Source: an uncultured Clostridia bacterium
GTDB taxonomy: Bacteria > Bacillota > Clostridia > Christensenellales > UBA1242
Direction of reading: 5' to 3'
DNA length: 36,315 nucleotides
Assembly: GCA_905235485.1 (NCBI GenBank)
Contig: CAJOLY010000027.1
Coordinates: 1 to 36,315, forward strand
This document shows, in pieces, positions 2,757 through 35,936 of this stretch. The notes beneath the pieces were generated by a model. It was not told the DNA's origin, ran no database searches, and worked only from the letters and a program-made list of their open reading frames with translations. The stretch's first letter is position 1. Every line of letters begins with the position of its first letter. Position numbers and translations under genes: made by a program.

Positions 2757-3932
2757 ATGGGAAAAGCATTTGAAAAGATAAATAAAAGTTTTGAATTAAA
2801 AAAACTTCTCAAAAAAACTGATAAACTTGTCAAAGATTTCAAGGTTAATATTGCAGTTTCTGTTTCAGATACATTGCGACAAGTCAGCAAAATTACAGAT
2901 GAAGAATATGAAAAGATGCAATCAAACAAATTCATTGGTTCCAAGAATGAAGATAATTTTTTCAAAGATTTGTCAGAATCTACATTAGATGTCAATGTGA
3001 GAACATTTGTAATCGACAAAAATAATTTTGCATTAGCATTTCACCCAATGGTTTGGAATGTTTTGTCACAAGAAGAAAAAATTGCTGCTTGCAGACTTGC
3101 AAGACTTGCAGTTGATGGCAAGGATTTTAAAGAACTTTGCGACTACAATTTTAATGTGGTTGTCCCGGTTGGCAAAAACTATCGTGGTTCACTTAATATT
3201 GGCGCTTTTAAAAGACAAGATATCCAAGGCATCAATGTTTTGATGGAAGTGTGCAATAGTGAAAACAGCAATAAAAAAAGTTTTTATATCAATAATTCTC
3301 GTGAAAAAGAGATTAACACGATTTTTGATTTTGCAAGTTTTGAAGAAATGCAATATATTTCACCAATTAAACCAAAAGAGAGTGATGTTGCCAAAATGTC
3401 ACCAAGGATAAAAGCATTTTATTTTGATCAGATTTATAAAAGGAAATGTAGAGATGCTGTTTGCAAGTCATGTGAAATGATTATGGCAGTGTTGGATCCC
3501 CTTAGAGATGTTTTTCCACAATTTGACAATGATTTAAAAGAAAAAGTTGATTCAATAACAAAAACTAATTTGTTCATCATGCAAACACTTGGATCAGACA
3601 TAAAGAAGAGAGATGAAGAATATTTAAGAATAAAGGTTGCTATGTTCAACGACATCTTTTTTGGCCAAGAAGACAAGCAAAATGAAGTCCACAATAAATT
3701 GCTTCAGGACTACAATAATTCAGAAGATATTTTGAAAAGTATGGACTTAGAAAGGCAATTGGAAGAGTCACAGAAAATACTCGATAAAATAGAAAGCAAT
3801 TACGTAGTTCTTGAAACTGCCAAAAAACATTTTGCTGAATATTTTTATCCAAAAAAAGAAAAGACAAAAAAGCCGACTGAAAAAATCACATCTCAAGACA
3901 TATTTGAAGATACAGATATACCAGTTTGCTAA
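2757..3932 (+). CDS. Hypothetical protein (391 aa)
   Basis: Long ORF with promoter upstream and terminator downstream; no family recognised. Confidence 0.8.
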   Translation: MGKAFEKINKSFELKKLLKKTDKLVKDFKVNIAVSVSDTLRQVSKITDEEYEKMQSNKFIGSKNEDNFFKDLSESTLDVNVRTFVIDKNNFALAFHPMVWNVLSQEEKIAACRLARLAVDGKDFKELCDYNFNVVVPVGKNYRGSLNIGAFKRQDIQGINVLMEVCNSENSNKKSFYINNSREKEINTIFDFASFEEMQYISPIKPKESDVAKMSPRIKAFYFDQIYKRKCRDAVCKSCEMIMAVLDPLRDVFPQFDNDLKEKVDSITKTNLFIMQTLGSDIKKRDEEYLRIKVAMFNDIFFGQEDKQNEVHNKLLQDYNNSEDILKSMDLERQLEESQKILDKIESNYVVLETAKKHFAEYFYPKKEKTKKPTEKITSQDIFEDTDIPVC

Positions 3933-8850: not shown

Positions 8851-9042
8851 AACTACTCTCCCAGACTGGTTTATGTCACTTTGTGCCATATAGCCCCAAA
8901 AACTCTCTTTCATATCTTCAAAAAAATAGCATGCTTTGCCGAAATTTTTTCGAAAAAAGAAAAGCAGGCCACAAATGGCTTTTGCTTTTTGAAAAACAAA
9001 AAGCAAAGCCCAAATGCCTTGCTGAAAAAAGGATATCTTTCG
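8851..9042. repeat. Tandem repeat unit A
   Basis: aactactctcccagactgg...gccttgct; near-identical to the next unit; contains inverted repeat GGCTTTTGCTTTTTG/CAAAAAGCAAAGCC. Confidence 0.9.
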
Positions 9043-9220
9043 AACTACTCTCCCAAACTGGTTATATGTCACTTTGTGCCATATAGCCCCAAAGGCTTTC
9101 TTTCACAACTCCAAAAAATAGCAGGCTCTGCCGAAATTTTTTGGAAAGGAGAAAAGCAGGACGTAAACGGCTTTTGCTTTTTGAAAAACAAAAAGCAAAG
9201 CCCAAAGGCCTTGCTTTTCG
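9043..9220. repeat. Tandem repeat unit B, abutting tRNA-fMet
   Basis: aactactctcccaaactgg...gccttgct, same inverted repeat as unit A. Confidence 0.9.
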
Positions 9221-9515: not shown

Positions 9516-9544
9516 TTGACATTGATTTAAGATTATATTATAAT
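9516..9544 (+). promoter_or_regulatory. Consensus promoter TTGACA-17-TATAAT of the tRNA operon
   Basis: Read directly upstream of tRNA-Met. Confidence 0.85.
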
Positions 9545-16307: not shown

Positions 16308-16336
16308 ATTATATTTATATAAAAATAAAAAGTCAA
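16308..16336 (-). promoter_or_regulatory. ileS promoter TTGACT-17-TATAAT
   Basis: Minus-strand motifs upstream of ileS. Confidence 0.8.
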
Positions 16337-16508: not shown

Positions 16509-18194
16509 TTACATATCACCTAGCATAATATTCATATATTCTTCATAAGAGGTTATGCCATCAAGCACATATTGTTTGCAAGCTTCACTTAAAGTTATCA
16601 TACCATTTTCAATGGCTTGTTTTCTCAAAGTTTCGAAATCAAGATTTTGATCGATAATTTGTGCTTTTATTTTACTATCTAAATATAATATTTCATGAAC
16701 TGCAACTCTGCCTTTGTAACCTGTGTTATTGCAATAAGGGCAACCTTGTGGCTTGAATATATACTCCTCATTTTTTAGCCCAAGTGCTTCCATGATACCT
16801 TTGTTTGTTTTAATTTTCTTTTTGCAGTGTGGACATAGTTGCTTAACAAGTCTTTGGGAAAGCACAGCAACAAGCGCATCACCAACCAAATATTGTGGGA
16901 TGCCCATATCAACAAGACGAATAACTGCCCCTGTTGAATCGTTTGTGTGAAGTGTTGAAAGCACCAAATGGCCTGTGATAGCTGCACGAGTTGCAATTTG
17001 TGCAGTTTCTTCATCACGGATTTCTCCAACCATTATAATATCAGGATCCTGACGCAAAATGCTTCTCAAACTTGAAGCAAACGTGAGATTTGCCTTTTTG
17101 TTGACCTGAATTTGATTTATGCTTTTCATTGCATATTCAACTGGATCCTCAATTGTAACGATATTCTTTTTTCCGTTGTTAAGTTCTCTTAAAAATGCAT
17201 AAAGTGTTGTAGTTTTTCCTGATCCTGTTGGACCTGTGAGCAAAATTATCCCGTGTGGGTGATTTAAAATCTTTTCAATTAGCTTATTTGCTTTGTCAGA
17301 AAAATTGAGCTCCTTTAAACTATATGAGAAAATCTTATTGTCTAAAATTCTTATAACAAACTTTTCTCCATATATTGTTGGAAGTGTGGAAACACGGAAG
17401 TTAACATCTTCCCCGTTAGAGTTCAAGGTTATTCTTCCATCCTGCGGAATACGCTTTTCAGCAATGTCTATGCCAGACAAAATTTTAATACGCGCTGCAA
17501 CTTCTGGGAATGAAGATATTGGAAATTCATTCCACTTAACAAGGTCTCCGTCAATTCTATATCTAATTATAACCTTTAACTCACCTGGCTCAATGTGAAT
17601 ATCGCTTGCCCTGAGTGGCAATGCTTCACGAATAATTGAATCAACAAACTTAACAGCTGGCGCATCTTGAACGCTAATGTCATCAGTTGTTGATTGATCC
17701 AAGTTCTCATCATCTTTTGAAATACTTGTTAGTGCATCTTTTGTTGTTACAGTTGCTTCATATGAATTCAAAAAATCAACGACTTTTTGTTTTTCAACAA
17801 CAACATATTCAATTTCACCATCATAAAGCATTTCCACAACAGATTTGAGTTCTGGATTTAAAATATCTGTAACACCCAAAATCAAAGTGCCATCTTTTGA
17901 AGTGTAAAGTGGCAAAAATGAAAAATGTTTCAACATTTCCAGATTAAAATACTTTTCTATGTTTTGCGAAATAGATATATAGTCAAGGTCTATTGATGGC
18001 AACTCAAAAAGACTGGCATATGCTTCGGTTTTGTCAAAATCAGAAATTTCACCAAGAAAAATCAGATGCTGCAAAACATCAAAGTTTTCTTCTTCAAATC
18101 TCTCCGAAAGTTCGTCATAAACTTTTTGATTTATCTTTCTTGTTTTTAAAAGATACCTTGCAAGTGTTTCATTTTTTGTCATATTTTTCTCCAA
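16509..18194 (-). CDS. pilB: Type IV pilus assembly ATPase PilB (GspE family)
   Basis: Walker A GPTGSGKTTTLYAF, Walker B/Asp box, CPHC/CPYC zinc motif, MshEN-like N-terminus. Confidence 0.95.
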   Translation of the reverse strand: MEKNMTKNETLARYLLKTRKINQKVYDELSERFEEENFDVLQHLIFLGEISDFDKTEAYASLFELPSIDLDYISISQNIEKYFNLEMLKHFSFLPLYTSKDGTLILGVTDILNPELKSVVEMLYDGEIEYVVVEKQKVVDFLNSYEATVTTKDALTSISKDDENLDQSTTDDISVQDAPAVKFVDSIIREALPLRASDIHIEPGELKVIIRYRIDGDLVKWNEFPISSFPEVAARIKILSGIDIAEKRIPQDGRITLNSNGEDVNFRVSTLPTIYGEKFVIRILDNKIFSYSLKELNFSDKANKLIEKILNHPHGIILLTGPTGSGKTTTLYAFLRELNNGKKNIVTIEDPVEYAMKSINQIQVNKKANLTFASSLRSILRQDPDIIMVGEIRDEETAQIATRAAITGHLVLSTLHTNDSTGAVIRLVDMGIPQYLVGDALVAVLSQRLVKQLCPHCKKKIKTNKGIMEALGLKNEEYIFKPQGCPYCNNTGYKGRVAVHEILYLDSKIKAQIIDQNLDFETLRKQAIENGMITLSEACKQYVLDGITSYEEYMNIMLGDM

Positions 18195-18263
18195 TAAATC
18201 AAATTTATTATATTTTTATGAATTTTTACAAAAATTTCATATTTTTTTATTTTTTTACTATTT

Positions 18264-19502
18264 CTAAACTTGAAGCTGAGTTATCATACTAAGTATTGGC
18301 GTGTAAATTGCTATAAACATAACTGCTATAAACACACCAAGTATTGAAAGCAAAACAGGTTGAATAGTTGTTGTTATGAGAGAAAGTGCACTTTCAACTT
18401 CCTGATCAAAATAATCATTTGTTTGAAGAAGCAATTTGTCAGTTGATCCTGTTTTTTCTCCAACCGCAATCATTTGAGTTACAACATTTGAAAGTTTCAT
18501 TTCAAGTTCGACTGCTGTTGAAAGAGCTATTCCCTTTTTAACATCTATTATAACTCTATCAAACTGCATTTTTAAATGTTTGTTTTTTATGATATTTTTC
18601 ATACTTTCAAGTGATGAAACAATGTCAAGTCCACTTGAAAGCAATAATCCCAAACACTCAACAAATTGTGATGTGAACATTGCCATATTTATTCGCTTAA
18701 AAATTGGAAGTGTTACTTTCATTTTGTCAAAGAATAATCTTCCTTTTTCTGTTCTCCCAAACAAAAATATTATTCCAACAATAGCAAATATTCCAAGAAT
18801 AATATACTGCCAATAATCTCGCAGGAAGTTTGATATGTTGAAAAGTGCAAGTGTTAACCCTGGAAGTTCAAGTTCCATTTGTTGAAATGATGAAATAAAT
18901 TTTGGAATAACCACATACAACATAACTCCAACAACTGCAACAAGCATAACAAGCAAAACAAGTGGATAAGCAAGAGCGGAACGAAGTTTTCGTTTGTTTT
19001 TTTCATTTCGAGTGTAATAATCAGAAACAGAAATCAAAACTTTGTCGAGATTTCCAGATGTCTCTCCAACATACACCATTGATGTGAAAAAATGTGGAAA
19101 AACCTTTGGATATTTTTTCATTGATTCCGAAAGCATAAGTCCTGCATACAAATCATCTGTAACTTTGTCAATTGTTTTTCTAAGTAAGCTTGAATAACCT
19201 TGCTCTCTCAACACTTTTAAACTATCTATAATTGAAACGCCTGAAGAAATCAATATTGAAAATTGCTTGCAGAAACTTGTAAGTTCCTTTATTCCAACTT
19301 TTCCTGACACTGTAAAAAATGCAGATGGTGCGTTGTTGGAAAGTTTTTTTATGCTATCAACATACAAATCCCTTTTTGCCAAACTTTCACGAACAAATTG
19401 TTCATCTTCCGCAATAAATGTTCCTTTAATTTTTTTTCCGTTCAAATCTTTTGCAACATAAACAAATTTTTTCATAGCACCCCAAACAAAGAAAGATACC
19501 AA
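18264..19502 (-). CDS. pilC: Type IV pilus inner membrane platform protein PilC (GspF family)
   Basis: Duplicated GspF domain; FCKQFSILISSGVSIIDSLKVL, YVGETSGNLDKVL, MIAVGEKTGSTDKLL. Confidence 0.95.
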   Translation of the reverse strand: MVSFFVWGAMKKFVYVAKDLNGKKIKGTFIAEDEQFVRESLAKRDLYVDSIKKLSNNAPSAFFTVSGKVGIKELTSFCKQFSILISSGVSIIDSLKVLREQGYSSLLRKTIDKVTDDLYAGLMLSESMKKYPKVFPHFFTSMVYVGETSGNLDKVLISVSDYYTRNEKNKRKLRSALAYPLVLLVMLVAVVGVMLYVVIPKFISSFQQMELELPGLTLALFNISNFLRDYWQYIILGIFAIVGIIFLFGRTEKGRLFFDKMKVTLPIFKRINMAMFTSQFVECLGLLLSSGLDIVSSLESMKNIIKNKHLKMQFDRVIIDVKKGIALSTAVELEMKLSNVVTQMIAVGEKTGSTDKLLLQTNDYFDQEVESALSLITTTIQPVLLSILGVFIAVMFIAIYTPILSMITQLQV

Positions 19503-20278
19503 TTTGCAATGATATCACCAACAAACCACGAAACTACTGCCGCAGAAACAATAAATGTTCCAAATGGATACTCTTTGTTTTTTTCTCCTTTATTTTTTAT
19601 GTTCAAAATTGATAACACAATTGCACCCAAAATTGAGGAAATTATAATTGTTATTATTGTACTTTTTAGTCCAAGTAGTAAGCCTAAAACTGCCATGAGT
19701 TTTATGTCTCCAAAGCCAAGGCCTTCTTTTTTTCTAACAAGATAAAATAGCAGTGCAAACAAAGCAAAAAATCCACCTCCAACCAAAAATCCAAATACTT
19801 TGCTTTGAATGTCAACATTTGGTGAAAGCAATGAAACAATGCCAAGAATTAAAAGTGCAAGCTGAAATTCATCTGGTATTTCCATATTGTCAAAATCACA
19901 AAAGAAAACACAGATCATAACTGAAAAAGATAAGCAAGACACGGCAAACATTAAATAGTTTGTTTGAACTGATGGAATGATAAAGTCAGTGAAAGCCATA
20001 AGCGACAAAAACCATAATGCCGTATTAAGTAATTCAACAAATGGATATCTAAATGAAATTTTTGACTTACACTTTCTACATTTGCCACGCAAAAATATGT
20101 ATGATAACACAGGAATATTGTCATACCATTTGAGTTTATAATCACAAGTTGTGCAATGAGAAGCAGGACGCGCTAAAGACATCTTTTTTGGAAGTCTATA
20201 GATAACTACATTCAAAAAACTGCCAACACAAAGACCAATCACAACTGTGAGTGAAATCATCAAAATTTTTGTGAGCAA
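19472..20278 (-). CDS. pilD: Prepilin peptidase
   Basis: N-terminal CTTCDYKLKWYDNIPVLSYIFLRGKCRKCKSKISFRYP and GFGDIKLMAVLGLLLG. Confidence 0.95.
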   Translation of the reverse strand: MLTKILMISLTVVIGLCVGSFLNVVIYRLPKKMSLARPASHCTTCDYKLKWYDNIPVLSYIFLRGKCRKCKSKISFRYPFVELLNTALWFLSLMAFTDFIIPSVQTNYLMFAVSCLSFSVMICVFFCDFDNMEIPDEFQLALLILGIVSLLSPNVDIQSKVFGFLVGGGFFALFALLFYLVRKKEGLGFGDIKLMAVLGLLLGLKSTIITIIISSILGAIVLSILNIKNKGEKNKEYPFGTFIVSAAVVSWFVGDIIANWYLSLFGVL

Positions 20279-20281
20279 ATT

Positions 20282-20731
20282 TTACACCTCCACATATCTA
20301 ATTAAGTTAGCTAAGTAATAATATTCAATTTCGTTATAGACCTTTTTGGTTAAATAAAAATCTTGACTCTGCTTTGCCAAAACTTTTTCTTGTCCCAAAG
20401 TAAAATCATAAATGCAATAAAAGAAAAGCGTTGTTTTTGTTGTATTTGTTTTTTTTGCGACTACTGCTTTTTGATTTGCATTTTCATCATTCACATAAAT
20501 CTTAACATCTAAATCATATTCACTATAACCGCCTTGTATTGTTTGATTATCAACAAAATCAGCATAGATTTTGTTTGTCAAAACTTCTTTGTTTAACTTT
20601 GAAACTTCGTACCTATTTGAAATGCTGGTTCCCATCGTAAGTGCAAAAATCAAACTTGAAACTGCAATTACTATAACCATCAAAACAACAACACTAAGAA
20701 GAACTGCTCCTTTTTTTTTGTTTATTCTCAT
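20282..20731 (-). CDS. Minor pseudopilin (GspK/PilX-like, lacks E5)
   Basis: MRINKKKGAVLLSVVVLMVIVIAVSSLIFAL N-terminus in the pilus operon. Confidence 0.75.
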   Translation of the reverse strand: MRINKKKGAVLLSVVVLMVIVIAVSSLIFALTMGTSISNRYEVSKLNKEVLTNKIYADFVDNQTIQGGYSEYDLDVKIYVNDENANQKAVVAKKTNTTKTTLFFYCIYDFTLGQEKVLAKQSQDFYLTKKVYNEIEYYYLANLIRYVEV

Positions 20732-20732
20732 A

Positions 20733-21164
20733 TCACACCTCGTAGCTATATATCAAACTATCATTTGAAGTGTAACACTCAACCAAAAATGAATTGTCAA
20801 AATTTAGATTAACATAATAACCATATTCACTTTCAGTTGAAACTTCTAAATCCTTAGAATAATAAATGGTTTTGTTGTCGCCATATTCATACTGCGTCCC
20901 GGTTAAAAGTTCCATTGAATTTTTGTAGTGATCACCACCCAAAAAATATGCTTGAACATAATTTTGCGTTTGAACGGTAAAGAAATTTTTTAATTTTGTT
21001 TTGTTGCTTGAGTTTAGTGATAAACTACAAATTGAAAATGCCATTGCTGAAATAATAACAACAAGTGCCATTGCAACAATTGTTTCAACAAGTGTAACAC
21101 CACTTTTTTTGTTTGCAAACAGTCTTATCTTGTTTTGATTTAAAATTCTTTTATTTTTTTTCAT
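20733..21164 (-). CDS. Minor pseudopilin
   Basis: KKSGVTLVETIVAMALVVIISAMAFS prepilin motif. Confidence 0.85.
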   Translation of the reverse strand: MKKNKRILNQNKIRLFANKKSGVTLVETIVAMALVVIISAMAFSICSLSLNSSNKTKLKNFFTVQTQNYVQAYFLGGDHYKNSMELLTGTQYEYGDNKTIYYSKDLEVSTESEYGYYVNLNFDNSFLVECYTSNDSLIYSYEV

Positions 21165-21165
21165 A

Positions 21166-21891
21166 TCAAAACAATCCTTTTTTTACTTCTAAAAAATAAT
21201 TTTTTGTTGCATATTGGAAAAGAGTTGTATTTTCAATTTTTGCAAAATAGTTTATGTCTCCGTCAAAATTGAAATCTTGAAGTTTTTTTTCGCTGTTGTC
21301 AATCAAAATCATTTTTTCACACTTAAATTCAAGAGCAGAACTTTTCAAATTTTTAATAAATTGATCAAAAAATATTTGAACTTTTTCAAAATTTATTGAT
21401 TTTTTTGTTGCTTTTTTGCTTAATTTTGATATTTTCTCTTCAAATTCTTCTTCATTTCCTGACATATTCTTATAATTTGTTTTTATGTAAGAAACAAATT
21501 TTTTTGCTAAACCATTTACGTTCATTTTCAATTTTTGATGGAAAACAACTTCACTTTTTGACACCGCAACAAAGTTTGCATAATCACCAAAATAAGCAAT
21601 CACAAAATTTTCTTTTGCAAGATTTTTGTTTTTTGCAAGCGTAAAATCGGAAAACACTTCTGACAAATATGTCATTCCAGAAACTTTAACACCAAACTTT
21701 GCAAAAGTGTTAACAATTTGGTCTGTGTATTTTTCCCTGATGGCAGCAAATGTGTAGGTGGATGTGTTTTTGTCTGTGGAAAAAAGTTTCTCACATACAA
21801 TCATTTTTTCATCTTTATTATAGAGCAAATCAAACTTTGTTTTGAAATATTTATTCACCTTACTTCTTGAGTAAGGAACAGTAAGATCCAA
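21166..21891 (-). CDS. PilM-like protein, C-terminal part (TTG start)
   Basis: Position in operon; reads as a continuation of the preceding 83-aa ORF. Confidence 0.6.
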   Translation of the reverse strand: MDLTVPYSRSKVNKYFKTKFDLLYNKDEKMIVCEKLFSTDKNTSTYTFAAIREKYTDQIVNTFAKFGVKVSGMTYLSEVFSDFTLAKNKNLAKENFVIAYFGDYANFVAVSKSEVVFHQKLKMNVNGLAKKFVSYIKTNYKNMSGNEEEFEEKISKLSKKATKKSINFEKVQIFFDQFIKNLKSSALEFKCEKMILIDNSEKKLQDFNFDGDINYFAKIENTTLFQYATKNYFLEVKKGLF

Positions 21892-22111
21892 CTAGTTCGT
21901 TTGGAAGAATTACATAATTTTTTTCTCTTCTTAAAATGCCATTTAATTCCTCATTTTGAGCACATATGAAATTTATGATACTTTCAAAATCTTTTTTTTG
22001 AGAATATTCATTTAAAAAATCAACAACAAAATATTTTTTGTTATTTTGTTGTTGTAATAATTTTATTTTTGATAAATCAAAATCGAAATATATAATCATT
22101 CTAAACTCCAA
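21860..22111 (-). CDS. PilM-like protein, N-terminal part
   Basis: MIIYFDFDLSKIKLL resembles the PilM/ASKHA phosphate-1 strand; ends in overlap with the next ORF. Confidence 0.55.
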   Translation of the reverse strand: MEFRMIIYFDFDLSKIKLLQQQNNKKYFVVDFLNEYSQKKDFESIINFICAQNEELNGILRREKNYVILPNELVGSYCSLLKK

Positions 22112-22565
22112 AAGTAACTAAATTTGAATATGTTGGATAATTATCAAACAAATACTTGCACAATATTAGGTTTCCATTAGATGAGAAATTTATTTCTATA
22201 ATTTTTTGAAATATCAAATTCTTTGTTTCAGTTTCTCCGGAATTGAGATTTAAAATGTTCGCTGTCAATTTGTTTTCAGCATAAATATATCTCAGTTCAT
22301 ATTCTTCCGTATCTCTTTTTATAACAACTTTTTCATTTGAAACTGAATCAATCATAAATTCGCTAGTTTGATAATTGTTAAAGAATGTATTCACCAATTG
22401 GCTTGCTCGTTGATATTCGGCTTGACACTGGCTTTCATAAGCTTGTTTGTTTGAAATATTTGATACAATAACTATAAGTGATGCCACAAGTGACATCACT
22501 ATAACACCTATTGACAAAGAAATCACAACTTCAACAAGCGTGAAGCCTTTTTTTTTGTTTTTCAT
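22101..22565 (-). CDS. Minor pseudopilin (PilW/PilJ-like)
   Basis: MKNKKKGFTLVEVVISLSIGVIVMSLVAS. Confidence 0.85.
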   Translation of the reverse strand: MKNKKKGFTLVEVVISLSIGVIVMSLVASLIVIVSNISNKQAYESQCQAEYQRASQLVNTFFNNYQTSEFMIDSVSNEKVVIKRDTEEYELRYIYAENKLTANILNLNSGETETKNLIFQKIIEINFSSNGNLILCKYLFDNYPTYSNLVTFGV

Positions 22566-22567
22566 AA

Positions 22568-24154
22568 TTACTCTTTATCTAGTTGACTTTTAACATCGTC
22601 CATAAGCTTTTTTGCTCTTTTTATTGCCAAATCGCTTTTTACAACGAGAAGAATAGGCGTTTTTTCATATTTCTTGATTTCACCCATATATTTCACAGGA
22701 ATAGGTGAATCTTCATAATCTTTTGCATTTAGTTTATAATATATTTTTAATCCTTTCTTTCCAGCAACTGTTATTGTTGCATATTTTATGTTTTTATAAA
22801 CAAAAGTTTCACCTGATTTTGTTAAAGCTGATTTAAAACCTAAACTTTCAAAATATGCTTTGAGCTCTACAAAATATTTTCTAACTTCTGGCCTTGCCAT
22901 TTTAAGTTTTTTTTCAAAGGTGTAATGATTTGATTTTCTATCAAACAAATTTTCATCATTATTCTCTTCAACTTCTTGAGGCTCTTCAGGCTTTTTTACT
23001 ACAACTTTTTGTGCTTCAACTTTTTCTTCCTTTGGCTCAACTTCACCTTCAACGCCATATTTGTTTTTTAAATCATCAAATAGTTTCTTTGCTCTTTTTA
23101 GCGCAAGGTCACTCTTGACAATCAATAGAACTGGTGTGTTTTCGTATTTTTTTACTTTTCCCATATCTTTAAGTGGGATTGGTGAGCCAAGATAATCATT
23201 GATGTCAAGTTTGTAATAAACTTTGAGACCTTTTTGCCCAGCAACGTCAATCATTGCATACTTTGTGTTTTTGTATGAGAATGTTTCACCTGGTTTTGTG
23301 AGAGCTGACTTGAATCCCAAGCCTTCGGCATAAGCTTTAAGCTCAGCAAAATAGTCTTTTGCAACTTGAAATGTTCTCTCTAGTTTTTGTTCAAAAGTGA
23401 AATCATTATTTTTTCTTTGTTTAAGTTTGTCAATATCACCCTTATAAATTTTTTCATCTTCTTCATCATTTAACAGTTTATCAATTTGAGCATTGTAATT
23501 CACAAAATCATTTCTGTATGTATATCCGTCGTATCCGTTTGAATTTTCAAAATAAAAATCCTTCTCTTCTTTTACTTCAATTGGTTCTTCCTCAATAGCT
23601 TCTTCAAGGATTTCTTCTTTTGGTTTTTCAGCTTTTTTGTGTCCAAGTTCTTCATTATATTGTTTGTAAAGATATATATCTCCAAACAAATATGCTAACT
23701 CAAGCTTTATGGTGCGAGTTGTGAAATATTGCAATGCGACAAACAATATTGCAAGTACAACAACAGTTATTGCAAGAATTTCATTTATAAACAATACCCC
23801 TATAAAGCCAATTCCAAAAGTAAAGGCCACTGTTGAAACCAAAATTGCAATTAAGCCTGCAAAAGAACTAAATTTTCTTTTACAAATCATAAATAGGCAT
23901 AAAATAAATACAAGTGCAAATCCCCCATAAAGCACAACACTTTGAAGCGCAATCAACAAATTAGCACCGCTATATATATCAAATATCACGGCTTTAACAA
24001 AATTATCTATGACTTCTAATGCAACAACATAATTTTTTGTTAATGTTATCCAACAACCCAACCACACTGCACAAACAGCAACCAAGGAAAAGATTGTCGC
24101 AAGCAAGTAATCAAGTGATTTTGGATTCAAAATTCCATATTGTTTATTTTTCAT
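22568..24154 (-). CDS. Membrane protein with two tandem copies of a ~110-aa domain, in pilus operon
   Basis: N-terminal TM segments; repeats YFAELKAYAEGLGFKSALTKPGETFSYKNTKYAMIDVAGQKGLKVYYKL and YFVELKAYFESLGFKSALTKSGETFVYKNIKYATITVAGKKGLKIYYKL. Confidence 0.85.
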   Translation of the reverse strand: MKNKQYGILNPKSLDYLLATIFSLVAVCAVWLGCWITLTKNYVVALEVIDNFVKAVIFDIYSGANLLIALQSVVLYGGFALVFILCLFMICKRKFSSFAGLIAILVSTVAFTFGIGFIGVLFINEILAITVVVLAILFVALQYFTTRTIKLELAYLFGDIYLYKQYNEELGHKKAEKPKEEILEEAIEEEPIEVKEEKDFYFENSNGYDGYTYRNDFVNYNAQIDKLLNDEEDEKIYKGDIDKLKQRKNNDFTFEQKLERTFQVAKDYFAELKAYAEGLGFKSALTKPGETFSYKNTKYAMIDVAGQKGLKVYYKLDINDYLGSPIPLKDMGKVKKYENTPVLLIVKSDLALKRAKKLFDDLKNKYGVEGEVEPKEEKVEAQKVVVKKPEEPQEVEENNDENLFDRKSNHYTFEKKLKMARPEVRKYFVELKAYFESLGFKSALTKSGETFVYKNIKYATITVAGKKGLKIYYKLNAKDYEDSPIPVKYMGEIKKYEKTPILLVVKSDLAIKRAKKLMDDVKSQLDKE

Positions 24155-24170
24155 AATATTCCCCTTTTTG

Positions 24171-24198
24171 AAAAAAACCTAAGTTTTTCGCTTAGGTT
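24171..24198 (-). terminator. Terminator/attenuator between pilin and rest of the operon
   Basis: AACCTAAG-CGAAAAA-CTTAGGTT then T5 on the minus strand. Confidence 0.75.
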
Positions 24199-24211
24199 TA
24201 GTAGTTATTTA

Positions 24212-24625
24212 TTACGCTGCTATATAATAAATATAATATCCGTTGATAGCTTCTCCACCATTCAATTCACCAACTGTTTTAGTTTCTGATATTGGATTCC
24301 ATTTTCCATCAGCATCAATCATATAAGCTTGGTTTGCAGCACCTTCTGTTGGAACTTCAACAGATGCTGTTGTTGCTGGAGCTGTGATTACAACTTCATA
24401 TGTTGTAATAACAACTTGTGAGTCAGCATAAAGATTTTCATCTTCAGCTTCATAATTAGAAGCATAAGAAACATAAACATTTCTCAGTTCATCTTGAAGT
24501 TTAACTTCATTTGCTTTCTTTGTGAGATTTGCAAATGTAGGAATCAAAATTGCAGATAAAATTGCAATAACTGCAATAACAATAACAAGTTCAACAACTG
24601 TAAATCCTTTCTGTTTATTTTTCAT
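24212..24625 (-). CDS. pilA: Type IV pilin, probable major subunit
   Basis: MKNKQKGFTVVELVIVIAVIAILSAILIPTFANLTKKANEVK; first gene of operon with strong RBS. Confidence 0.85.
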   Translation of the reverse strand: MKNKQKGFTVVELVIVIAVIAILSAILIPTFANLTKKANEVKLQDELRNVYVSYASNYEAEDENLYADSQVVITTYEVVITAPATTASVEVPTEGAANQAYMIDADGKWNPISETKTVGELNGGEAINGYYIYYIAA

Positions 24626-24682: not shown

Positions 24683-24711
24683 ATTGTAGTACTAAAAGTA
24701 CTTTAAGTCAA
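24683..24711 (-). promoter_or_regulatory. Pilin promoter TTGACT-17-TACAAT with palindrome in the spacer
   Basis: AGTACT-N3-AGTACT at 24688-24702 lies between -35 and -10. Confidence 0.65.
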
Positions 24712-31445: not shown

Positions 31446-32825
31446 TTAATACAAACAGTTGTTTGGTGTTCTTGGGAAAGGTATTACATCTCTAATGTTT
31501 TCAACGCCAGTGAGATAAATAATAAGTCTTTCAAATCCCATTCCAAAACCAGAATGCTCTACACTCCCAAATCTTCGTAAATTCAAATACCAGTCTATAG
31601 TGCTTGTGTCAACGCCAAGTTCTTTGCAGCGAGATAATATTTTCTGATAGTCAGTTTCCCTTTGACTGCCTCCCATAAGTTCACCGGCTCCAGGGACTTC
31701 AAGGTCAACAGCAGCAACAGTTTTGCCATCGTCATTCAGCTTCATATAATATGCTTTTATATCCTTTGGCCAGTCTTTTATGAATACTGGTCCATTGAAA
31801 TAAGAAGTCAAATACTTCTCGTGTTCCTTTGCAATATCACTATCGTAATTAGGTTCAAATTCCCACTTTTCACCACTATTTTTAAGTATGTCAATTGCTT
31901 CGTGATGCGAAATTCTCACAAATTTGCTATCCACAAGTTGTTGCAACTTTTGAATGAGTCCATTTTGAACATTTTTGTCCAAAAACTCAAGTTCTTCACT
32001 GCATTTTTCAAGCACTTCTCTCACTACACTTTTGAGCATATCTTCTTCGATATCCATAAGTTTGTTAATATCACAAAATGCAATTTCTGGTTCAATCATC
32101 CAAAACTCATTTGCGTGTGTTTTTGTGTTTGAATTTTCTGTTCTGAATGTTGGGCCAAAAGTGTATATCTTTTGAAATGCCAGAGCAAAAGCCTCACCGT
32201 GAAGTTGACCTGATCCTGTTATAAATGCTTTTTTGCCAAACAGATCCTTGCTCATATCAACACTGCCATCTTTATTTTTTGGGAGGTTGTTGAAATCAAG
32301 TGTTGTGATTTTGAACATTTGATCACTACCTTCACAATCAGCTGTTGTGATGAGTGGCGTGTTTACATAAACATATCCATTTTTTTGAAAATATGCGTGG
32401 ATTGCCATTGCTGCAACGCTTCTAATTTTGAAAATTGCAAAATATGTGTTTGTTCTTGGTCTCAAATATGCCTGTTCACGCAAAAACTCAAGCGTGTGTC
32501 TTTTTGGTTGAATTGGATAATCTTCATCGGCATCACCAAGCAAAACAACATCAATAGCCTTCACTTCATAATCTTGTTTGCCACCTTCAGATTTCGCAAG
32601 TCTTCCCAACACATGCACAGCAGATCCAACTTTAAGTTTTTGAATTTCTTCAAATTTTGAAAGTGAATCATCATAAACAATTTGGGTTTGCTTGAAACAA
32701 GTCCCGTCGTTTAAATTGATAAAACCAAAATTTTTTTGCTTTCTATGATTTCTAATCCATCCATCTAGTTCAATTTGTTTGTCTAAATATTTTTTAGGGG
32801 TCTCCCACAATTCTTTTGCGTCCAT
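31446..32825 (-). CDS. asnS: Asparaginyl-tRNA synthetase
   Basis: N-terminal OB fold, FRTENSNTKTHANEFWMIEPE, GFGMGFERL, C-terminal FPRTPNNCLY. Confidence 0.96.
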   Translation of the reverse strand: MDAKELWETPKKYLDKQIELDGWIRNHRKQKNFGFINLNDGTCFKQTQIVYDDSLSKFEEIQKLKVGSAVHVLGRLAKSEGGKQDYEVKAIDVVLLGDADEDYPIQPKRHTLEFLREQAYLRPRTNTYFAIFKIRSVAAMAIHAYFQKNGYVYVNTPLITTADCEGSDQMFKITTLDFNNLPKNKDGSVDMSKDLFGKKAFITGSGQLHGEAFALAFQKIYTFGPTFRTENSNTKTHANEFWMIEPEIAFCDINKLMDIEEDMLKSVVREVLEKCSEELEFLDKNVQNGLIQKLQQLVDSKFVRISHHEAIDILKNSGEKWEFEPNYDSDIAKEHEKYLTSYFNGPVFIKDWPKDIKAYYMKLNDDGKTVAAVDLEVPGAGELMGGSQRETDYQKILSRCKELGVDTSTIDWYLNLRRFGSVEHSGFGMGFERLIIYLTGVENIRDVIPFPRTPNNCLY

Positions 32826-33657: not shown

Positions 33658-33687
33658 ATTATACCATAAAAGATAAAAAATAGTCAA
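33658..33687 (-). promoter_or_regulatory. Promoter TTGACT-18-TATAAT
   Basis: Minus-strand motifs upstream of the 33628 start. Confidence 0.75.
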
Positions 33688-34092: not shown

Positions 34093-34114
34093 AAATTCAC
34101 ATTTCTGTGAATTT
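34093..34114 (-). terminator. Hairpin AAATTCACATTTCTGTGAATTT downstream of the surface-protein gene
   Basis: Palindrome; the identical 22-mer recurs at 35014-35035. Confidence 0.65.
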
Positions 34115-34161: not shown

Positions 34162-34710
34162 TTATATTTTTCCTAAAACATCTTTCTTTTTCAACACAAC
34201 AGCCACAAGTGAAGAAAGCATCAAAACAGCCACCATTGGCTCAACAACACTAGCAACCACACCTGTGCTTGGTGTTGGTTCAGTGTCAACAATTTGTGTT
34301 GCATTTGATTGTAACCATGATATTAGAGTGCCATTTGTAGCATCCGTGCCACCGGTGATTGCAATAGTAAGAGGAATACTTCCAGCCCAACCAGTCGACC
34401 ACACCATATCGTAATCAGTCTCCATAATCCAGAAAAAGAAAGGATCAGGATTAACAAGAATAAACATCAATGAAGTAAAATCACCGGGTTCACCATCACT
34501 AAACCAGTAACTACCACTTATAGACCAAGTATACTCACCTGGAAAAGTAATAACATCATTAAACTCCCAAGTTGTGCCTGTCAGATCTGTTATCTCTGCT
34601 TCTGCGTGCAATTTTAAATTTGCTTCAGCCCCAAAAATCATTGATGCGGCTAGTAACATAATTGCCATAAAAACAAACAAATATCTACTAATTGTGTTAT
34701 ATTTTGTCAT
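34162..34710 (-). CDS. Secreted surface protein with TPSTG sorting-like C-terminus
   Basis: Start moved to the ATG at 34710 after ttggaggttaat; signal peptide; C-terminus EPTPSTGVVASVVEPMVAVLMLSSLVAVVLKKKDVLGKI. Confidence 0.75.
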   Translation of the reverse strand: MTKYNTISRYLFVFMAIMLLAASMIFGAEANLKLHAEAEITDLTGTTWEFNDVITFPGEYTWSISGSYWFSDGEPGDFTSLMFILVNPDPFFFWIMETDYDMVWSTGWAGSIPLTIAITGGTDATNGTLISWLQSNATQIVDTEPTPSTGVVASVVEPMVAVLMLSSLVAVVLKKKDVLGKI

Positions 34711-34744
34711 ATTAACCTCCAAAACTATATTATTCCTCAATGTC

Positions 34745-34780
34745 ATTTTAGAAAAAAAAAAAAAAAAAAAAAACAGTCAA
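34745..34780 (-). promoter_or_regulatory. Promoter with homopolymeric spacer: TTGACT-G-T22-C-TAAAAT
   Basis: A22 tract at 34752-34773 (+ strand) between AGTCAA and ATTTTA; 24-bp spacer. Confidence 0.6.
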
Positions 34781-34917: not shown

Positions 34918-35019
34918 TTATAATTCAATTTTTACAATTTTATATTTTGTTTGTCCGATTGGAGTGTCAACAACAACTTCTGTTCCAACTTTTTGACCTA
35001 ATATTGCTTTGCCAAATTC
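34918..35019 (-). pseudogene. greA: 3' remnant of transcription elongation factor greA
   Basis: Minus-strand frame reads EFGKAILGQKVGTEVVVDTPIGQTKYKIVKIEL*, like the GreA C-terminus; upstream frame runs into a stop after about 7 more codons. Confidence 0.7.
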
Positions 35020-35035
35020 ACATTTCTGTGAATTT
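35014..35035. repeat. 22-bp palindromic repeat, second copy
   Basis: Identical to 34093-34114; sits at the greA homology breakpoint. Confidence 0.9.
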
Positions 35036-35132
35036 AATCTGGTTTAATGCTTTTTTGAATTTATATTTTATCCTAGTTTCAGCAAATATCATCAAAATTA
35101 TTGTCAACAACCAGTGAAAAAAAACCTACAAA

Positions 35133-35936
35133 TCACGCCACTTGTTTTGCAATCACCATAACTCTGTTTTCAAGGTTAGAGTTGCAAGTGAATAGCGTCA
35201 AAAACCTGTCGCCATAGGTTGCAGTTTCCAAACATCCAACGATTGAATGTTTTTGCACAAGTCCATAAAAATTGTCAAAAGAAGCCTGAGAATTTATGTT
35301 GATTGTGTTGTAAATTTTAAGTTGCTCAGTATTTTCACGATTTACATTAAATAATATTACGCCCATAACCTTAAAGATATATTTATTGTTTAAAGTTTCA
35401 ACACTTATTGTGTAATTGTAATTGGGGTTATAAATTAAATATTTGTTAAGTGCCCCAAATATCGAAGTGTTTTTTTTGAGATTAAACAAATTTTCTGTAA
35501 ACGAACTGTGTCCAATAAACACGGTGTTTGTTGTCTCGCCAAGCATTGTTGTGTGCTTTTGATATGGCGTGCCAAGCTCGTTAGCATCATTTTTAAAGTC
35601 GTGCGAAAGATAGTAGTCTTCACCAGCATTACTTTCGGTTTTAACAATTGGCAAATGTATGTCTAAATCTTCAATTTCAATATATGCAAAGAGGTCGTTG
35701 TTAATCTCCTTCAACGCAGCAAGACCTTTTTCTTCCTTTAGGTCATACAGTCCATTTAAGTATATATCATAATCATACATATTTTTTACACGCATTATAG
35801 ATTTTACATTATAATTAAGCACAAATATCAAAGCAGCAGTCAAAATGCATATCAACAGTCTTGAAAAAAACTCTTGTTTTCTACTCCATAAAACATGTCT
35901 TAACTTTTGTTTCTTCATTTTTTTATTATACAACAT
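35133..35936 (-). CDS. Class B sortase
   Basis: N-terminal TM, VFIGHSS His motif, TLFTC catalytic Cys motif, NRVMVIAK Arg. Confidence 0.9.
   Translation of the reverse strand: MLYNKKMKKQKLRHVLWSRKQEFFSRLLICILTAALIFVLNYNVKSIMRVKNMYDYDIYLNGLYDLKEEKGLAALKEINNDLFAYIEIEDLDIHLPIVKTESNAGEDYYLSHDFKNDANELGTPYQKHTTMLGETTNTVFIGHSSFTENLFNLKKNTSIFGALNKYLIYNPNYNYTISVETLNNKYIFKVMGVILFNVNRENTEQLKIYNTININSQASFDNFYGLVQKHSIVGCLETATYGDRFLTLFTCNSNLENRVMVIAKQVA

Follow-up and report, generated by a model that had tools for sequence, protein, structure and literature searches.

A T22 promoter spacer as a putative phase-variable switch of a sortase-anchored-type surface-protein gene in an uncultured Clostridia bacterium

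Introduction

Phase variation through changes in promoter-spacer length is established for surface genes of Neisseria and Mycoplasma, as the initial annotation of the present locus had stated (porA, PMC3639595; vlp, PMC10502178). In Neisseria meningitidis, the porA promoter has a poly-G tract between its -35 and -10 elements, and tracts of 11G, 10G and 9G lead to graded expression (PMC3639595), while all members of the Mycoplasma hyorhinis vlp family carry an adenine tract in the promoter region and are switched ON or OFF by insertion or deletion (PMC10502178). Upstream of the LPXTG surface protein Spy1336/R28 of Streptococcus pyogenes, a variable intergenic tract of 9–11 T sets the transcript level in this Gram-positive species, and has been described in terms of how far apart it places two direct repeats, ATTTTT, of a divergent regulatory region (PMC7098570). 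For Candidatus Mycoplasma girerdii, metagenome reads showed phase variation in BspA-like proteins and in a methyltransferase with a G8 tract (PMC5476646).

Here, we analyzed a stretch of 36,315 nucleotides (the window), which is a whole contig (C27) of an assembly of 981,203 bases in 58 contigs. A homopolymer of 22 T residues lies in the spacer of a predicted sigma-A-type promoter, and we estimate a probability of about two in three that this promoter is a phase-variable contingency locus driving a surface protein of the sortase-anchored type.

Architecture of the Putative T22 Promoter

On the minus strand, positions 34780-34745 read TTGACT-G-T22-C-TAAAAT, exactly to the base as initially annotated, and the distance from the -10 hexamer to the ATG at 34710, given as about 35 nt, was measured as 34 nt. 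The elements of the promoter region are the following:

34775..34780, minus strand: -35 hexamer TTGACT, assigned from the sequence and from the same hexamers at other promoters of the window
34774, minus strand: G, first base of the spacer
34752..34773, minus strand: T22 homopolymer tract
34751, minus strand: C, last base of the spacer
34745..34750, minus strand: -10 hexamer TAAAAT, assigned from the sequence
34716..34720, minus strand: ribosome-binding site GGAGG, between the -10 hexamer and the ATG and 5 nt before the latter, assigned from the sequence

The spacer (G + T22 + C) measures 24 bp and is nearly all one homopolymer, so that a simple repeat separates the -35 and -10 elements, as in promoter-spacer contingency loci. 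Its description as far from optimal is borne out by the genome's own promoters: the four put forward for comparison (16308-16336, 33658-33687, 24683-24711 and 9516-9544) are present, with spacers of 17, 18, 17 and 17 bp, respectively, and among the TTGAC[ATC]/TATAAT pairs in ~72 kb of this genome, 17 bp is clearly the most frequent spacer length (n = 6, versus 0–2 at the other lengths between 10 and 31 bp). The T run was also considered as part of a terminator, which we rejected, since neither strand has a GC hairpin before the run and the terminator scan has no entry there.

We propose that the sigma-A-type promoter with the T-tract spacer would drive expression of the sortase-anchored-type surface protein, and that slipped-strand mispairing during replication would alter the number of T residues. 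Tracts of T14–T16 (spacers of 16–18 bp) should permit transcription, with T15 (17 bp) being the best, and other lengths would reduce or stop it, the assembled T22 allele (24 bp) being predicted as OFF; the outcome would be reversible, heritable cell-to-cell differences in the exposure of the surface protein. We infer tract variation, transcriptional control and protein display from sequence. The earlier proposal that the promoter would be restored by loss of 6–7 T holds arithmetically but does not describe a single step: going from 24 to 17 bp requires a net loss of ~7 T, and T22 is therefore not one slip away from ON. T22 may be a far-OFF allele in the sampled population, the locus may be multi-step or graded, or the tract length may drift over a wide range. 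In addition, MutS1 is intact in the genome, which should lower slippage in mononucleotide tracts and counts against the phase-variable reading; for the same reason, loss of mismatch repair was rejected as the cause of the tract.

Both the 7 T in excess of the best spacing and the presence of MutS1 would also fit a decayed promoter, in which a single past expansion of the T tract would have silenced the gene for good and left no functional reversibility. We consider this unlikely, in view of the genome background, the state of the gene and the tracts on other surface genes described below.

The Tract Against the Genome Background

Apart from T22, the whole assembly has no A/T run of 12 nt or more, although a first-order Markov model predicts ~31 runs of at least 12 nt and ~0.006 runs of at least 22 nt. 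Long runs are thus otherwise avoided in this genome, with T22 as an outlier, and the repeat is long relative to the genome background, as in contingency loci. In a genome devoid of other long runs, neutral expansion precisely at a promoter spacer would be odd, which argues against the decayed promoter.

The placement of the tract is also uncommon. Among 398 T runs of 6–21 nt in ~72 kb of the same genome, TTGAC lies at most 4 nt upstream in two cases, and in one of the 398 such an upstream TTGAC is accompanied by TANNNT 1–12 nt downstream. That a T tract like T22 occurs only once in the genome counts against the phase-variable reading. The framed T-run pattern was found in 2 of the 151 genomes of the order sample (T≥14) and in 2 of the 392 genomes of the class (T≥13), and the backward control pattern in none of the 151 or of the 392. 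Other T runs of at least 13 nt are present in 24 of 80 genomes of the family and, apart from T22, none of those whose sequence was read is framed as a -35/-10 spacer; the family thus does not use poly-T spacers in general. One further candidate, TTGACT-T14-GA-TAAAAT in genome G034, was rejected as a surface-gene analogue, because the gene downstream encodes a reverse transcriptase.

Contig overlaps of exactly 99 nt indicate an assembly graph with k = 99. The tract may have been mis-sized, the true spacer being ~T15 in an ordinary constitutive promoter with a T-rich spacer: the assembly was made from short reads, homopolymers this long are sized poorly by PCR and short reads, and T-rich spacers do occur in the window (e.g., TTGACT-ATTTTTTATC... 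at 33687-33658). Nevertheless, the 22-nt tract and its flanks fit within one 99-mer and were spanned by the assembler's words, so that the length is probably near the true one, with some stutter possible, and a T15 tract would still exceed every other A/T run of the genome in length and be prone to slippage. We regard this as the least likely of the alternatives weighed here.

In metagenome-assembled genomes (MAGs) of the same family, long T runs are often located less than ~100 nt from a contig start (e.g., G591:C38:20-33, G529:C40:22-35, G569:C53:3-16, G542:C25:42-55, G580:C3:70-83 and G002:C63:88-101). This suggests that assemblies break at long T tracts, so that short-read data probably understate the number of such loci.

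The Predicted Surface-Protein Gene and Its Neighbourhood

The gene downstream of T22 and the adjoining features are:

34162..34710, minus strand: coding sequence of 182 amino acids, with a signal peptide, a beta-rich middle (from a low-confidence model), a PTPSTG sorting-like motif, a membrane segment and a KKK tail
34165..34281, minus strand: sorting-signal-like tail EPTPSTGVV...VLKKKDVLGKI, with E-P-T-P-x-T-G-V-V invariant in three paralogs
34918..35043, minus strand: C-terminal remnant of greA, 41 codons plus stop, with the sortase gene on one side and the promoter on the other (Pfam GreA_GreB, 2.3e-8)
35133..35936, minus strand: class-B-like sortase of 267 amino acids, upstream of the T22 gene (Pfam Sortase, 8.6e-10)

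The regulated gene had been assigned to the expected target class on the basis of its signal peptide and sorting-like tail, and both were recovered here, next to a sortase gene. The C-terminal pentapeptide motif, hydrophobic stretch and positively charged tail of sortase-anchored proteins are all present and conserved in three paralogs, the motif being TPSTG and not LPXTG; the protein has no match to a Pfam or NCBIfam family, the LPXTG-anchor models included, and its predicted structure (mean pLDDT 47) is of too low a quality for a fold search. Two full-length paralogs in the same genome, in contigs C31 and C47, have 32 and 42% identity to it and share the motif PTP[SA]TGVV; they are likewise without a Pfam family, and paralog L016 gives only a weak LPXTG-anchor match, below the cut-off. 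No orthologs of the T22 gene were found in the genus, the order sample or the GTDB representatives.

The sortase scores above the cut-off of the Pfam Sortase model and its nearest solved structures are SrtB, but its match to TIGR03064 srtB (3.3e-18, 65.9 bits) lies under the curated cut-off of 153.75. It is possibly the enzyme that anchors the T22-gene protein.

The open reading frame, ribosome-binding site, signal peptide and tail of the T22 gene are all intact, contrary to what a decayed promoter with a permanently silent gene would lead to expect, whereas the adjoining greA remnant indicates that the neighbourhood has been rearranged, in line with decay. An exact 22-nt direct repeat, AAATTCACATTTCTGTGAATTT, containing a 9-bp hairpin, flanks the T22 gene at 34093-34114 and 35014-35035, with one copy inside the greA remnant and the other on the 3' side of the gene, and may mark a past rearrangement.

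With the sortase gene on the same strand and 422 nt upstream, the T22 gene could instead be transcribed by read-through or from an upstream promoter, leaving U22 in the 5' leader, where it could act via polymerase slippage or be idle. Promoter-like sites on the same strand exist at 34928-34899 and 34875-34848. They match only 9 of 12 positions, however, and sites of this quality are about as frequent in shuffled sequences (19 found versus a mean of 12.8, sd 4.2), while a chance framing of the tract by TTGACT and TAAAAT is much less likely than the occurrence of such weak sites. Transcription from further upstream therefore appears quite improbable to us, and the phase-variable promoter remains the preferred reading.

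Elsewhere in the window, we observed a ~192-bp tandem repeat at 8851-9215 (1.9 copies, 89% alike) and, at 16509-24625 on the minus strand, a gene cluster whose translations resemble an ATPase of the type II secretion/type IV pilus kind, a membrane protein, a prepilin peptidase and several pseudopilins. The AsnRS gene (31446-32825, minus strand) has its closest matches in Bacilli MAGs, with ~73% identity, and was possibly acquired by horizontal transfer.

Homopolymer Tracts on Other Genes

We looked at the promoter regions of both paralogs. The contig carrying the C31 paralog begins 61 nt before the ATG, at a possible -10, leaving the promoter off the contig; a reconstruction from contig overlaps was abandoned, as no fetched contig end overlaps. 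The C47 paralog (C47:3456-4121, L017) is preceded, ~100 nt before its ATG, by a 30-nt N gap (3324-3353) that ends in GGGGGATTGTGATACAAT, its GGGGG being immediately upstream of TGATACAAT and next to a -10. This gap is probably a poly-G tract left unclosed by the assembler, and would fit a poly-G spacer hidden within it.

G runs of at least 7 nt number only four in the genome, where ~0.08 runs of at least 8 G are expected per strand:

C8:30999-31009, minus strand: G11 in the signal-peptide codons of a gene for a BspA-like LRR_5 surface protein, out of frame as assembled
C12:92-99, plus strand: G8 in the signal-peptide codons of a gene for a BspA-like LRR_5 surface protein, out of frame as assembled
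C42:3526-3534, minus strand: G9 within the gene of a cytosine methyltransferase, located on a phage-like contig (L040), in frame as assembled
C42:4874-4881, minus strand: G8 within the gene of an adenine methyltransferase of the EcoRI type, on the same phage-like contig, in frame as assembled

The two BspA-like genes (L038 and L039) have an identical 99-nt 5' end and encode BspA-type leucine-rich-repeat proteins with sorting-like tails. Their bodies are in frame from the ATG only if the number of G residues equals 1 modulo 3, which places the G11 and G8 alleles out of frame. The tracts in the methyltransferase genes are possible contingency loci.

Comparable arrangements were spotted by eye in relatives, in a small sample that consists partly of the flanks of other matches, and they serve as illustrations and not as a measured enrichment. 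Genome G096 belongs to the same family and has a tandem pair of paralogous lipoprotein genes, each with TTGACA-TCATAT-G14-C-TACAAT (L289:1-45 and 1020-1075), and in G227, from another family of the class, TTGACTG-T14-GG-TATAAT (spacer of 17 bp) lies before a gene for a signal-peptide protein. In a Bacilli MAG (RGIG8711), TTGACA-AAATGAGGT-G10-TACAAT (N9 + G10; spacer of 19 bp; L145:7985-8015) precedes an open reading frame for a secreted protein of 772 amino acids; across the 796,527 bases of the comparison loci, both strands counted, there is no T run of 12 or more and no other G run of 8 or more. TTGACA-ACTGGTCA-G15-TATATT, near a contig end in G555, may be an assembly artefact, the stretch being very homopolymer-rich.

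Tracts on other surface genes, in the same genome and in relatives, lend independent support to the phase-variable reading and speak against a decayed promoter. The initial proposal of a phase-variable promoter is supported in part: in its favour are the promoter geometry, the predicted class of the target, how rare such a run is in the genome, and these analogous tracts.

Comparison With Known Systems

A broader reading, to which we give somewhat less than even odds, is that this uncultured family with genomes of ~1 Mb has a mixed surface-variation programme. Promoter spacers with T or G tracts and signal-peptide codons with G tracts would then act as independent switches for sets of sorting-signal proteins, BspA-like proteins and lipoproteins, and as such tracts cause breaks or gaps in short-read assemblies, most of the programme would have escaped notice. 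Were this the case, uncultured bacteria with reduced genomes would also use promoter-spacer phase variation, a mechanism best known in cultured pathogens, and would do so with both T and G tracts; a lineage represented by assemblies only would gain a list of contingency genes testable by tract-length counts in existing metagenome reads, and there would be a warning that such genes get lost at contig ends and gaps.

The mechanism itself is already known from porA, vlp and the R28 tract; what this uncultured lineage with its reduced genome adds is the mixture of T tracts with G tracts and of promoters with signal-peptide codons as their sites. As in porA, a homopolymer separates the -35 and -10 elements of a gene for a surface protein, here a predicted one, although the tract is poly-T, about twice as long, in an unrelated protein and phylum, and with a presumed length variation. 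As in vlp, an A/T homopolymer is found in the promoter region of a member of a surface-protein family, but with T on the coding strand and in one member only, the other members having a possible poly-G tract or unread sequence; moreover, the vlp products are lipoproteins, whereas those of the T22 family are sorting-signal proteins. A T homopolymer upstream of a surface-protein gene is shared with R28, with the difference that T22 itself forms the -35/-10 spacer. Although most repeats in Ca. M. girerdii are dinucleotides and their variation was demonstrated at read level, this organism is, by analogy, the closest ecological parallel, as both are uncultured, have small genomes and carry simple repeats in BspA-like genes (G8/G11 here) and methyltransferase genes (G8/G9 here).
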